From contig NZ_JANUHB010000002.1 of NCBI RefSeq assembly GCF_024756255.1, positions 992,001 to 1,056,000 of the forward strand: DNA of 64,000 nucleotides, in the 5' to 3' direction. Of this stretch, positions 58,489 through 62,856 are shown in pieces. This DNA is from Massilia agilis. Its GTDB lineage: Bacteria > Pseudomonadota > Gammaproteobacteria > Burkholderiales > Burkholderiaceae_D. Both the position numbers and the translations under genes were made by a program. The notes under the pieces were generated by a model. That model was not told the origin of the DNA, did not search any database, and worked only from the letters and a program-made list of their open reading frames with translations. The stretch's first letter is position 1. Each line of letters starts with the position of its first letter.

Positions 58489-58655
58489 TGCGGCTCGACC
58501 CGCCTTGCCTGGTCGGCCCACATGATCGGAATGCCGTCGCGGATCGGATAGGCCAGGCGGTCGGCGCGGCAGATCAGCTCTTGCGCCTTTTTGTCGTATT
58601 CGAGCGGTCCCTTGCACAGCGGGCAGACCAGGATATCAAGCAGTCGGGCATCCAC
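58485..58655 (-). CDS. Trm112-family small zinc-ribbon-like protein
   Basis: A 56-residue protein with [19 protein letters not shown] and [20 protein letters not shown], the Trm112/UPF0434 pattern with a CxxC pair. In bacteria it lies between lpxK and kdsB; its role is unknown, possibly a partner of a methyltransferase. The GTG at 58655 with GGAG seven bases before is the best start; it overlaps lpxK by 20 bp and kdsB by 4. Confidence 0.92.
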
Positions 58656-59658
58656 GACATTTCTCCACAATTTGTTCGGCCAGCGCGGCATCGATATGCG
58701 CCGCCACCGGCACGACCCACAGGCGCGGGTCGTTCTTCAGGTTTTCAATCTGCCCACATTTTACTGCATCCTTCTCGGTGATCAGGATGACATCGGCCTG
58801 CACGCGATCGAAAGGCGCATCGCGAAAGTCGTGATGGTCGGGCAGCGGCAGTTCAATGATGGCCAGGCCCGCCGCGCGCAGCATGGCAAAGAAGCGGCCA
58901 GGGTTGCCGATGCCGGCGGCGGCAACGATGCGTTTGCCGGACAGATGGGCAAGCGGCACGCGCTGCGCGGGGTTGGACAGCTGCTCGGCGTATTCCCCCA
59001 CCAGCCGCATGCGATGCGGCGCGCCGCCGATGGCGTTTGCCAGCTGCGGCGTGATCTCGGGCGCATTCACGACCGTGAAATCGCGGCGGCGGGTGCGCGG
59101 CTCGCGCAAGGGTCCGGCGGGCAGCAGCCAGCCGTTGCCCACGCCGCGGCCGTCGAACAGCACGATCTCGATGTCGCGCGCAAGCGCATAGTGCTGCAGG
59201 CCGTCGTCGGCAACGAGGATGTCCACCTCCGGGTGCGCGGCCAGCAGGGTCCTGCCGGCCTGCCCGCGCGCACGGCCCACCACGACCGGGCACTTTGCGC
59301 GGCGCGCGATCAGGAGCGGCTCGTCGCCGGCCTGGCTGGCGTCCGACTGCGCCGTGACTTCGCGCGCGTGTTCGCCACTACTGCCATGGCCGCGCGAAAT
59401 GACGCCGGGCGTAAAGCCGGCGGCGCGCAGCGTTTCGACCAGCCAGATGGTGAGCGGGGTCTTGCCGGTACCGCCGATGAAGATGTTGCCGACCACGATG
59501 ACCGGCACCGGCAGGCGCTCGGATTTGAACAGGCCCGCGCGGTACAGGCCCGCGCGCGTTGCGGCGATGGCGCCGAACAGCTGCGAGACGGGCCACAGCG
59601 CGCAGGCCAGCGGGCCGCGGCGCAGCCAGGCGCGAGTGAGCGTGGATTCAAGCGACAC
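58636..59658 (-). CDS. lpxK: Tetraacyldisaccharide 4'-kinase
   Basis: A 340-residue inner-membrane kinase phosphorylating lipid A precursor. An N-terminal membrane-associating helix ([18 protein letters not shown]) precedes the P-loop [19 protein letters not shown] (about 55). [20 protein letters not shown] and [10 protein letters not shown], with ITEKDAVKC near the end, are LpxK motifs. ATG 59658. A REP pair separates it from exbD, yet the order exbB-exbD-lpxK-Trm112-kdsB is the usual betaproteobacterial one. Confidence 0.95.
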
Positions 59659-59808: not shown

Positions 59809-60264
59809 CTACTGTTTGCTGCCCGTCTGCGCCGCAAACGTCAGCTTGTCGTAGCCGGCAACGCGGGCCGCCTCCAGCACGTTGATCACCATCTGGTGCA
59901 TTGCGAACTGGTCGGCGTTGACGATGACCACCGGGCTTTGCGCCGGCTGCGCCAGCGGCTTGCCATCCGGGCCGGTCGCCGCCGCGTGCTTCAGGTCCTC
60001 GGCCAGTCCCTGCACGCTGTGGAAGGACACCGGCACGCCGTTGACGGTGTAGTTGCCCTTGGCGTCCACGGTCACGTTGATCTCGAACGGCTTCTCCACC
60101 GCCTTCTCGGCCTCGGCCGTGGGCAGCGTGATCTGCAGCTCGGTGAACTTGCTGTAGGTGGTGGTGACCATCAGGAAGATCAGCACCACCAGCAGCACGT
60201 CGATGAACGGGATCAGGTTGATCTCGGGGTCCTCGCGCTTGCGGCCCCGGCGAAAGTCCATCAT
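59809..60264 (-). CDS. exbD: ExbD/TolR family transport energiser
   Basis: A 151-residue inner-membrane protein. One N-terminal helix (INLIPFIDVLLVVLIFLMV, about 15-35) carries the essential aspartate in FIDVLLV. The periplasmic ELQITLPTA and VIVNADQFAMHQMVINVLE segments follow. With ExbB it feeds proton-motive force to TonB receptors, such as the OprC-like receptor here. It overlaps exbB as ATGA (60261-60264). Confidence 0.93.
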   Translation of the reverse strand: MMDFRRGRKREDPEINLIPFIDVLLVVLIFLMVTTTYSKFTELQITLPTAEAEKAVEKPFEINVTVDAKGNYTVNGVPVSFHSVQGLAEDLKHAAATGPDGKPLAQPAQSPVVIVNADQFAMHQMVINVLEAARVAGYDKLTFAAQTGSKQ

Positions 60265-60866
60265 TTGCGGGCACCGTGCACGACATCGACGAACTTCACC
60301 GCCTGCAGCTCCATGTCCATGATGAAGGTGTCCACCAGCGCGCGGAAGTGACGGTAGAACACCAGCGCCGGCATGGCGATCGCCAGGCCAAAGCCGGTGT
60401 TGTACAGCGCCACCGAAATGCCGTGCGCCAGCTGGGCCGGGTTGGTGCCGGTCGCGTTCTGGGCGCCGAAGATCTCGATCATGCCGACCACCGTGCCGAA
60501 CAGGCCCATCAGCGGTGCGAGCGAGGCGATCGTGCCCAGCGTGGTGAGGAAGCGCTCGAGCATGTGCGCCACGCCCCTGCCCGCTTCCTCGATCGATTCC
60601 TTCATCACCTCGCGCGGCGCATCGACGTTGCGCAGCGCCGCTGCCAGTACGGTGCCCAGCGGAGAGTTCTGCTCCAGGCGCTGCACCACCTCGGGCGTGA
60701 CCTTGCCGTTGTGATAAACGCGGATCACTTCATCGAGGAGCGCGCGCGGCAGGATCTTTTCGCGGCGCAGGTAGATCAGGCGCTCGATGATCAGCGCCAG
60801 TGCAACGATCGAGGCAATCAACAACAGCCAGATGGGCCAGCCTGCGGCTTGGAGAATGGCGAGCAA
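60261..60866 (-). CDS. exbB: ExbB/MotA/TolQ family proton channel
   Basis: A 201-residue protein with three helices (PIWLLLIASIVALALIIERL, about 10-30; LGTIASLAPLMGLFGTVVGM; GFGLAIAMPALVFY). It forms the proton channel with ExbD. The start is a TTG at 60866 with AGGAG six bases upstream (CAGGAGTTCGTT-TTG); no ATG gives a sensible N-terminus, and the extended frame to 60983 is leader sequence holding a DnaA-box repeat. The first DnaA-like repeat unit lies about 75-100 bp upstream of this start. Confidence 0.9.
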   Translation of the reverse strand: MLAILQAAGWPIWLLLIASIVALALIIERLIYLRREKILPRALLDEVIRVYHNGKVTPEVVQRLEQNSPLGTVLAAALRNVDAPREVMKESIEEAGRGVAHMLERFLTTLGTIASLAPLMGLFGTVVGMIEIFGAQNATGTNPAQLAHGISVALYNTGFGLAIAMPALVFYRHFRALVDTFIMDMELQAVKFVDVVHGARK

Positions 60867-60940
60867 AACGAACTCCTGAGGGGTAAAAAATCCAATTCGG
60901 CAATGTAACGTGTTGCCCGCGCGGGGGCAAGACCAGTTCT

Positions 60941-61911
60941 GCACATCTTTTGTGGATAAGACTGTGACCAAGAACGGTGCCATGCGCCAAGCATATTGAT
61001 TCTTAAAGGAAAATTTTGCCTGCTCGAAATGCGGGCAGGGTCTGGAACGGGAAACGGAACATGCGCCTTGGCCCGCGCCGGAGTGTTCGCCCGGGCTTTT
61101 CGGTGCGCCAGCGGGGATCAGGAGTTGTCAGTTGCAAACAACTTCTGTGGATAATGTTGTGAGCAAGGATGTCCGCACAATTGCATCCCCTTGATTTATC
61201 ACGAAAATTCCTTCGCGCCCAAAAATATGGCAGGATTTTTTGTTTCACTTGGGCAATTTCCAGTCCCCAGGTTTCTCACAAATTTTGTGGACAAGATTGT
61301 GAGCAAGGCCCCGCGCACGATTCCAAGCTGTTGATTTTTCGCAAGAAATTCATCGAGCTGAAATTTGTGGCAGCATGGCTGGCTGAGCGTTTTCCACCAA
61401 AACCCCGGCTTTCTCACAATTTTTGTGGAAAAGACTGTGAGCAAGGACATTGAGCAGCATCAAAGTGTCTGATTCCAAAAGGAAAAACACCCGCGCTCAA
61501 AATTTGGGCAAACGGCAGTTTTCCGCAACTCCCTGCCTTCCCCGCCCCCTTTTCTGGCCATATCCGAGCTGTTTTTCAAGGCAACTTGGATAACTCATCC
61601 CGGTTTTCACACATTCTGTGGAAAAGGATGTGAGCAAGGATTAAGTTCGCGTGACAAGACTTTGATTTGAAATGAAAAAGTAGTGCAGGCCCAAATTTTA
61701 GGCACGGCCCTGGCTAGCTCGCACCAACACGGCGGCGCGGCATCTGTGGACCCTGCCGCGCGAAAGCGGCGGCGGGCCTGCGCTGCATTCCCCCTGTACA
61801 GACAGGGCTTTTGCACATCTTTTGTGGACAAGATTGTGAGCAACAACCGATGCGCCAGGGCAAGCCATTGATTCCGTTAAGAAATTTCTCCATGCCCCGT
61901 TTTTAGGCACC
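60941..61911 (+). repeat. Array of six DnaA-box-bearing repeats of about 90 bp
   Basis: A gene-free kilobase between exbB and a pirin gene holds six direct imperfect repeats. Each begins with TTNTGTGGANAAGANTGTGAGCAAGGA (TGTGG at 60951, 61146, 61286, 61424, 61617 and 61823), then about 20 bp of variable DNA, TTGATTY, and an AT-rich end like GCGCCCAAAATTTGGGCA. Spacings are 195, 140, 138, 193 and 206 bp. The cores contain TGTGGATAA (units 1 and 2, identical to the DnaA box TTATCCACA reversed) or one-base variants (TGTGGACAA, TGTGGAAAA), all in the same orientation. Several lie between CTCACA and TGTGAG arms. The array may bind or titrate DnaA, or be another regulatory site; origin activity is not shown. 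Confidence 0.75.
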
Positions 61912-61941
61912 CCGCATGAAGCTGCCCACGTTTTGCGCAAA

Positions 61942-62856
61942 TCAGGGGTAACGCACCGGCCGGCCGACCGTCTCCGGTAACGGAATGAATTCGGTCTCGC
62001 CCGGCACCGACGGAAAGGCCATCTTGCGCCAATCCTCGCGCGCCTGTTCGATGCGCTCCTCGGAACTGGCGACGAAGTTCCAGGACAGGTAGCGCGGGCC
62101 ATCCATCGGTTCGCCGCCCAGCAGCATGACCCGTGCAGGCTTTCCGCCATGCGCGGCCAGCGTGACCGCGGCTTTCGGCTTGAGCACCAGCAGCTGCCCT
62201 GCCGCGAACACGCCGTCGCGGCCCAGGTCGAGTTCGCCCTCGACCACGTACAGCGCCTGCTCGCTGTATTCGGCCGGCATGGCGATGCGCGCGCCCGGCT
62301 GCAGGTTCAGGTCCACGTAGAACATGTCCGACAGCGTCGGCACCGGCGAGCGCTGCCCAAAAAAGCTGCCGGCAACGATGCGCGCGCTGGCGCCCTCGCC
62401 TTCGACCAGCGGCAACTCGTGCGCGCCGGTGTGCGAAAACGTGGGAGCGGTTTCCTCGTGCTGGCGCGGCAACGCCACCCAGCACTGCAGGCCGAACAGC
62501 GACGAGCCGGCCCCGCGCAGCTCCTGCCCGGTGCGTTCGGAATGGACGATGCCGCGCCCGGCCGTCATCCAGTTCACTTCGCCGGGGCGGATCGGCTGCA
62601 CGCTGCCCAGGCTGTCGCGGTGCAGGATCTCGCCCTCGAACAGGTAGGTGACGGTCGCCAGGCAGATATGCGGGTGCGGACGCACGTCCAGGCCGCGGCC
62701 GGGCTGGAACACGTGCGGCCCCATCTGGTCGAGGAAGACGAACGGCCCCACCATGCGCTTGTCGCGGCTGGGCAAGGCGCGCCGCACCTTGAACTGGTCG
62801 CCCAGGTCGTGCACCGGCGGCACCACCACCACCTCGAGTGCGCTTTCATTGTCCAT
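61942..62856 (-). CDS. Pirin family protein
   Basis: A 304-residue bicupin. The N-terminal cupin has [34 protein letters not shown], with HPH and a later His forming a metal site, and [20 protein letters not shown]. The C-terminal cupin has [22 protein letters not shown]. Pirins act as quercetin dioxygenase-like enzymes or transcription cofactors; the actual role here is unknown. ATG 62856, preceded by GGAGG. The 228-bp gap to the next gene (62857-63084) shows nothing else. Confidence 0.92.

Follow-up and report, generated by a model that had tools for sequence, protein, structure and literature searches.

A probable DnaA-reactivating array of DARS2 type upstream of exbB in Massilia agilis

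The closest described counterparts of the locus reported here are the DnaA-reactivating sites DARS1 and DARS2 of Escherichia coli. These DARS lie at 0.81 and 2.97 Mb, and their boxes I to III are described as equally spaced at both sites, with box I opposed to boxes II and III (PMC5742627). Boxes I and II are reported to assist head-to-head dimers of ADP-DnaA (PMC8682772). In DARS2, the core is followed by IHF and then by Fis sites, and ADP release by DARS2 with IHF and Fis has been established in E. coli (PMC4245941). Moreover, the DARS2 core is described as conserved in gamma-proteobacteria related to E. coli (PMC4245941), a review of 2017 mentions DARS-like sequences in E. coli-proximal beta- or gamma-proteobacteria (PMC5742627), and a review of 2023 does so for many proteobacterial species (PMC10380432). 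Thus, DARS-like sites outside the enteric bacteria are not new as such. In the literature that we found, it is in E. coli that the function of DARS has been elucidated. The mostly open-access literature on proteobacterial DARS or on DnaA boxes beside exbB yielded no account of a phased array with several units. The initial annotation knew of no described element with such a layout, which agrees with this literature for the array as a whole but is not right for the single unit, whose layout is that of the DARS core.

The window, a 64-kb stretch of the M. agilis genome, contains six modules of about 100 bp each that run in one direction at 60937-61909, upstream of exbB. On the plus strand the repeats start at 60937, 61132, 61272, 61410, 61603 and 61809, and the start-to-start distances are 195, 140, 138, 193 and 206 bp. 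The six direct repeats of about 90 bp in a row that had been annotated are real, since TTGTGGANAANNNTGTGAGCAA with up to three mismatches matched exactly these six places in 64 kb (shuffle mean 0.03), but they are not contiguous, as diverged spacers lie between the modules. Each unit has a 35-bp core with three DnaA-type boxes, in which box I faces boxes II and III. The opposed box I (pattern TTnnnCACA) lies 5 bp upstream of box II, and box III, mostly TGTGAGCAA, lies 3 bp downstream of it; both gaps are identical in all six units and in DARS1 and DARS2. The layout with the opposed box I is present in all six units and the strict pattern in four, units 2 and 5 deviating in box I. Thus, the units share one orientation, as the initial annotation stated, whereas the boxes do not. 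The annotated core TGTGGANAA turned out to be box II inside the three-box core, and the CTCACA/TGTGAG arms noted around several cores are boxes I and III. Two exact DnaA boxes and four with one deviating base had been counted. Box II is indeed the exact TGTGGATAA in two units and TGTGGACAA, one base off, in two others; the remaining two carry TGTGGAAAA, a form compatible with the broader consensus TTWTNCACA as well. From this consensus, box III deviates by two bases in every unit.

The individual units, all on the plus strand, are composed as follows. Unit 1 has its core at 60937..60971 (box I TTCTGCACA, 5 bp, box II TGTGGATAA, 3 bp, box III TGTGACCAA), an IHF-type site at +52 (60989..61001) with two mismatches to YAANNNNTTGATW and a Fis-like site at +85 (61022..61036) with two mismatches to GnnYAnnnnnTRnnC. 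The core of unit 2 (61132..61166) combines a degenerate box I, TTGCAAACA, with TGTGGATAA and TGTGAGCAA, and is followed by an IHF-type site at +52 (61184..61196, one mismatch) and a Fis-like site at +85 (61217..61231, two mismatches). Unit 3 (core 61272..61306; TTTCTCACA, TGTGGACAA and TGTGAGCAA) has a perfect IHF-type site at +52 (61324..61336), and no Fis-like site was found in it at up to two mismatches between +83 and +87. In unit 4 (core 61410..61444; TTTCTCACA, TGTGGAAAA and TGTGAGCAA), the IHF-type site at +52 (61462..61474) has two mismatches and the Fis-like site at +85 (61495..61509; GCTCAAAATTTGGGC) none. Unit 5 (core 61603..61637; GTTTTCACA, TGTGGAAAA and TGTGAGCAA) carries perfect sites of both kinds, at +52 (61655..61667) and at +86 (61689..61703; GCCCAAATTTTAGGC). 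Finally, unit 6 (core 61809..61843; TTTTGCACA, TGTGGACAA and TGTGAGCAA) has a perfect IHF-type site at +52 (61861..61873) and a Fis-like site at +85 (61894..61908) with one mismatch. Judged by sequence match, the IHF-type site is therefore exact in three units, one mismatch off in one and two off in two, and three of the six sites start with C and so have one mismatch to the narrower consensus TAAnnnnTTGATW. The Fis-like site, for which the consensus is loose, is exact in two units, one mismatch off in one, two off in two and absent from one. The TTGATTY block and the AT-rich end reported by the initial annotation are both real; the units show a TTGATT block at +59 and a GC/AT-rich/GC end at +85.

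The three-box idea came from DARS and was checked on E. coli DNA, in a scan that covered the oriC, datA, DARS1 and DARS2 stretches. DARS2 lies upstream of mutH and DARS1 at bioD-uvrB. The layout 9-5-9-3-9 with an inverted box I is common to the array units, DARS1 (TTATCCACT ATTCC TGTGGATAA CCA TGTGTATTA) and DARS2 (TTATTCACC TTTTC TGTGGATAG AGT TGTGAAGAA). Both DARS were found at two mismatches and the datA stretch had one place at four mismatches, while the oriC stretch had no core layout at up to four mismatches. In DARS2, IBS1 (+93) has the strand of the IHF-type sites of the array and IBS2 (+109) is inverted, both with one mismatch, and a Fis consensus follows at +145; the two IHF sites are 3 bp apart, which agrees with the published description (PMC4245941).

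The array sits between exbB and a pirin gene (61942..62856, minus strand). The exbB/tolQ-type proton channel gene (60261..60866, minus strand, start codon inferred; Pfam PF01618, 3.2e-30) has the array directly upstream; its product scores under the cut-offs of the named NCBIfam models. It is adjoined by an exbD/tolR-type gene (59809..60264, minus strand; Pfam PF02472, 4.6e-30), and lpxK, encoding the lipid A kinase, comes next in the same direction (58636..59658, minus strand; TIGR00682, 228.9 bits, above the cut-off). ExbB and ExbD are 99.5% and 98.7% identical to Massilia solisilvae proteins (L032). The array had been placed in a gene-free kilobase. The open frames listed between exbB and the pirin gene are 62-94 aa long, apart from longer frames that enter from both neighbours, and we assume them to be chance frames. 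An Rfam search of 60300-62600 gave no match up to E 1, and a non-coding RNA was rejected on this ground. A strict tandem repeat was rejected as well, as Tandem Repeats Finder lists nothing at the array. A promoter and terminator scan of the array found nothing above shuffles. The genome encodes a DnaA protein above the cut-off, an IHF-beta subunit (154.4 bits; cut-off 115), a Fis homologue (117.9; cut-off 122 of NF002517; 77 aa matched) and an Hda homologue (157.0; cut-off 194.8 of TIGR03420; matched part 134 aa).

The composition of the units recurs in related bacteria. The array sample comprised at least 118 stretches from a scan of named genomes together with the M. agilis locus, and it is biased to TGTGAGCAAG. 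Arrays with at least three units, among the matches listed, number 73 with 437 units, overlapping loci of the own genome (L002-L011) having been dropped. They have 3-8 units, six or seven in 54 of the 73, some being cut by the ends of the loci; the array of Janthinobacterium LM6 is split over two loci (L063 and L084). When these 437 units, from the matches listed, were aligned without gaps on the core, conserved columns were found at 0-34 (core), 53-65 (AAGTCNTTGATT) and 84-100 (TGCGCAAAAATTAGGCA), with moderate conservation at 66-79 (A/T) and none past about +101. Thus, among the matches listed, the modules are kept in the 73 arrays while the spacers are not. Columns 52-64 fit the IHF consensus WATCAANNNNTTR (PMC4585315) read backwards, that is YAANNNNTTGATW; the narrower consensus mentioned above is that of PMC4245941. 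The base at +52 is poorly kept, with A in 39%, T in 32% and C in 22% of the units listed. Columns 85-99 resemble the Fis consensus GnnYAnnnnnTRnnC (PMC4245941). A set of 542 cores from the matches listed, consisting of 477 array cores with a neighbour and 65 solitary ones, was used for counting; L002-L011, L084, the E. coli loci and L195-L223, which had been selected for an IHF site, were dropped from it. Among these array cores, whose counts are inflated by relatedness, an exact IHF consensus occurs at +52 in 170 of 477, the mean per offset being 1.15. If one mismatch is allowed, it is found at +51 to +53 in 323 of the 477 listed cores, and 154 still have no such site at +52. The exact but loose Fis consensus lies at +85/+86 in 66 of the 477 listed array cores, as against 0.69 per offset.

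The initial annotation had also proposed a mobile-element family, and the units could be a repeat family or mobile element with an incidental resemblance to DnaA boxes. We consider this most improbable. The units are repeated and, in two genera, parted by gaps of 1.2-2.1 kb, as such an element might be; however, the modules are conserved while the spacers are not, the locus is the same across genera, the spacings are helically phased and the own genome holds few copies elsewhere. In the 5.16-Mb assembly of 32 contigs, the whole stretch matches once. At up to two mismatches, four copies of the box II-III pair lie outside the array, two of them between hemE and priA, in addition to the six within it; the full three-box pattern, at the same tolerance, has two copies besides the six of the array, and these lie on either side of a UvrD/Rep-like open frame. 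A mobile repeat is not supported, as the copies are few and bound to the locus, and the array stays beside exbB across genera. The gapped arrays are those of L177, L178, L179 and L186, in which units beside exbB are parted by about 1.2-2.1 kb, perhaps by inserted genes; in L178 and L179 the gaps among exbB, exbD and lpxK are also longer than in the window. The number of DnaA-box cores in the hemE-priA gap ranges from one to four, and they are followed at +118 to +120 by an inverted IHF-type site (L191, L187, L188, L189 and L264); L191 represents the own genome (C29, 125500-133500), where one of these cores is degenerate. The cores around the UvrD/Rep-like frame, a 748-residue open frame named by eye, lie on C1 at about 411.9 and 414.4 kb (L190, 3874 and 6369) and have inverted IHF sites at +119.

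The constant neighbourhood of the array raises another explanation, in which DnaA, IHF and Fis bound to the array would set the expression of exbB-exbD-lpxK and thereby tie envelope synthesis to the replication cycle. Among the matches listed, exbB is adjacent and divergent in 62 of 72 arrays; the DNA on that side is too short in nine, and the Azohydromonas array (L042) has no exbB. The conservation beside exbB thus extends to 62 of the 62 listed arrays in which that side is visible. The distance between the first core and the beginning of the exbB alignment is 12-187 bp in 61 of the listed arrays and 369 bp in one, and single cores in other families of the order are found upstream of exbB (at 72-829 bp, in 14 loci out of 30) or of lpxK (in 6 out of 30). 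However, a promoter needs no six phased units over 1 kb, and the layout equals that of sites with a known nucleotide-exchange function. Moreover, the module is not confined to one promoter, as similar ones lie at hemE-priA and around the Rep-like helicase frame. A simple sigma-70 scan returned no promoter-like site (0 as against 0.6 in shuffles), which is weak evidence. We therefore regard transcriptional control as quite unlikely.

The distances between the units point to an ordered arrangement along the helix. Among the matches listed, 362 spacings of 80-260 bp fall mostly near 117, 128, 138, 149, 160, 170, 182, 192 and 203 bp; off-phase spacings of 123 bp (10 times), 143 bp (10) and 174 bp (7) occur as well. 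Phasing was tested at periods of 9-13 on 129 spacings, to which 30 spacing clusters contributed their first listed array each; this was the only test in which related arrays were thinned. The resultant reached a maximum R of 0.445, as against a mean of 0.183 and a 99.9th percentile of 0.292 in jittered sets, and none of 2000 such sets reached 0.445; the result is indicative because spacing clusters are not a phylogeny. When one array per cluster was drawn at random, the best period averaged 10.9 bp (R 0.441), and R was 0.375 at 10.5. Divided by 10.9, the spacings in the window amount to 17.89, 12.84, 12.66, 17.71 and 18.90 turns.

The position of the array on the chromosome was expressed as a fraction of the arm between dnaA and a dif-like match. 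The array is intergenic, and in 12 genomes it has exbB beside its units and lies at 0.37-0.65 of this arm: LM6 0.51, H-1 0.63, 9I 0.64 (closure of the record being uncertain), G010 0.57, G059 0.60, G301 0.65, G402 0.37, G448 0.60, G462 0.58, G486 0.65, G506 0.58 and G542 0.59. These fractions are not independent because relatives share gene order. A further genome (G519), which would give 0.56, was left out because no exbB was present in the 9 kb fetched. The corresponding fractions of E. coli DARS2 and DARS1 are 0.41 and 0.66, with dif at 1.589 Mb. The gene dnaA is a rough marker of the origin in this family, as became apparent from LM6. Neither the 400 kb around dnaA in LM6 nor 300 kb of C29, a contig of the own genome, displayed a clear skew switch, and three TTWTNCACA boxes grouped within 500 bp were not shown for either region. 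Sparse sampling of the skew in LM6 placed the origin between about 0.1 and 1.2 Mb, and denser sampling revealed a switch of the GC skew and of GGGNAGGG polarity near 0.35-0.37 Mb. The skew switches again by 3.58 Mb, next to dif, which lies almost opposite the first switch. Of the places sampled between -0.34 and 0.56 Mb, only those at 341 and 354.6-356 kb have three perfect boxes in a stretch of 600 bp. These clusters of perfect DnaA boxes in LM6 (G001) are found at L267 1064-1344 and 14598-16054, at about 341 and 355-356 kb. Since they coincide with the skew switch, the replication origin of LM6 is probably not beside dnaA but about 355 kb away from it, and the box clusters and skew switch at 0.34-0.37 Mb leave dnaA as only a rough origin marker in the family. 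For Cupriavidus metallidurans, a skew switch about 90 kb from dnaA is described (PMC2864759). With the skew-based origin, the LM6 array still lies in mid-arm, at about 0.45.

The same data bear on the idea that the array is a second or cryptic replication origin. DnaA boxes, IHF-type sites and AT-rich stretches would suit an origin. However, the E. coli oriC stretch lacks the core layout, and in LM6, the single genome sampled for skew across the chromosome, the skew switches near 0.35-0.37 Mb and by 3.58 Mb and not at the array at 1.79 Mb. An origin function is hardly credible in the light of these observations.

The initial annotation had further suggested a datA-like titration site. Such a site would soak up DnaA or, with IHF, promote ATP hydrolysis on DnaA and thereby delay initiation. 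The array offers up to 18 box-like sites in 1 kb, with IHF-type sites between successive DnaA clusters, and in E. coli much of the titration of DnaA is reportedly due to DARS1, DARS2 and datA taken together (PMC12371093). However, the head-to-head three-box core is the DARS layout and was matched in the datA stretch only at four mismatches. A pure sink would be expected to have strong boxes, whereas boxes I and III are weak. The mid-arm place of the array and the Fis-like site at a fixed position, which is a feature of DARS2, also speak against titration. Thus, datA fits less well than DARS, and we consider a titration or datA-type site unlikely as the explanation of the array; reactivation and titration are not mutually exclusive.

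The array is probably an amplified DnaA-reactivating locus of DARS2 type, which would regenerate ATP-DnaA and also hold DnaA. The annotated DnaA-binding, replication-linked regulatory site is thus supported, as far as layout and conservation can indicate it. From these two lines of evidence we infer that the units gather ADP-DnaA and that IHF and Fis take part, and the nucleotide exchange, the stacking and the effect on initiation timing are predicted in the same way. In each unit, two ADP-DnaA molecules would face each other on boxes I and II and a third molecule would sit on box III, with the DNA being bent by IHF at +52 and bound by Fis at +85. As at E. coli DARS2, ADP could then be loosened from DnaA and apo-DnaA released, so that ATP-DnaA would be regenerated before initiation. 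Six units at one mid-arm locus may multiply the rate of reactivation, and their helical phasing may let neighbouring complexes stack. The array, with its up to 18 box-like sites, would incidentally retain DnaA as well. The reading as a DARS is favoured by the core layout, the fixed positions of the IHF-type and Fis-like sites, the conservation on the exbB side, the phasing, the mid-arm place and the presence of dnaA, hda, ihfB and fis homologues. Several observations stand against it. IHF-type and Fis-like sites are nearer to the core than in DARS2 (+52/+85 as against +93/+145), for which shifts of the IHF and Fis sites by 5 or 10 bp are reported to have cut activity to varying degrees (PMC4245941). 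Not all units have all sites, exact IHF-type and Fis-like sites being found in three and two of the six units, and box I of unit 2 is degenerate. Box III deviates from TTWTNCACA in every unit, the best phasing period of 10.9 bp is slightly over 10.5, and the neighbouring genes are unlike those of DARS1 and DARS2. The constant place upstream of exbB would fit a promoter role too. The main doubts come from the reduced distances, from box III, which is weak, and from the constancy of exbB as a neighbour.

Of 195 genomes sampled from the family, 168 have the box II-III pair (up to one mismatch) and 27 gave no match; each of 13 genomes of the own genus has it four to seven times, and the reversed pattern, used as a control, gave five matches in four of the 195 genomes. 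At the level of the order, the three-box core (up to two mismatches) was found in 279 of 399 genomes and had no match in 120, and the reversed pattern had no match across the 399 genomes. Of 30 order-level loci from other families, 14 have exbB on the box I side, at the distances given above, 6 have lpxK but no detected exbB, and 10 have neither gene. Solitary cores, among the matches listed, are followed by an inverted IHF-type site at +117 to +122, which is exact in 26 of 65 and found in 33 of 65 when one mismatch is allowed, as against means of 0.07 and 0.39 of 65 in windows of equal width elsewhere. In L042, L053, L153 and L154, the +52 and the distal IHF sites are both present or nearly so. 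A core that is followed between +100 and +130 by an inverted IHF consensus without mismatches was found in 27 of 369 genomes of the class (24 of 272 genera), with no match in 342, and the reversed pattern occurred in none of the 369. This search was a replication rather than a blind discovery, because the inverted IHF site had been noticed earlier and the range set to +100 to +130. The 29 matches lie at +109 (2), +117 to +122 (26) and +130 (1), in steps of about one helical turn, and +109 is also where IBS2 lies in DARS2. The gene priA is nearby in three of these 29 loci (L199, L209 and L220), a Rep-like frame of the own genome in two, and exbB and mutH were detected in none.

Taken further, Massilia, Duganella, Janthinobacterium and their relatives would control DnaA from a single mid-arm locus with five to eight stacked DARS modules in helical phase; how many units there are and how they are phased would set the speed of ATP-DnaA rebuilding, and a core with IHF at a fixed helical phase (+109, +117 to +122 or +130) would be a class-wide grammar; we hold the chances of this extended proposal to be evenly poised. 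If true, the shared grammar of core and IHF site would make DARS sites readable from the sequence in many proteobacteria. The rule would offer a way to find such sites where DnaA regulation is unknown, and the natural series of one to eight units with spacers mostly whole turns apart would allow a direct test of DARS dosage and geometry on initiation timing.

Among the known systems, oriC does not fit, as the E. coli oriC stretch is without the core and the LM6 array lies at 1.79 Mb and not at the skew switch at 0.35-0.37 Mb. The array shares with datA the combination of DnaA boxes and IHF. However, datA lies at about 0.2 of its arm from oriC by coordinates, whereas the array is in mid-arm; the datA stretch approaches the three-box layout only at four mismatches, and the minimal datA is described as boxes 2, 3 and 7 with one IHF site (PMC5742627). 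The core of DARS1 is laid out identically to that of the array units, but DARS1 is a single copy and is reported to promote ADP release in vitro without added factors (PMC5742627). The single core-plus-IHF modules of other Burkholderiales and Gammaproteobacteria have the same core as the array units and an IHF-type site at a fixed distance, usually inverted and at +117 to +122, in contexts that include exbB, hemE-priA and priA. They differ from the array in having mostly one core and in their IHF site, which is distal and inverted instead of at +52; a few loci have both. DARS2 differs from the array by its single core instead of six, by IHF sites at +93 and, inverted, at +109 instead of +52, by a Fis site at +145 instead of +85 and by additional boxes IV-VI (PMC4245941), and the neighbours of the array are exbB and a pirin gene, not mutH. 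However, the order, orientation and gaps of the boxes are identical in DARS2 and the array units, the IHF-type site lies on the same strand and side, with a candidate Fis-type site beyond it in the array units, and both loci are intergenic and located in mid-arm.
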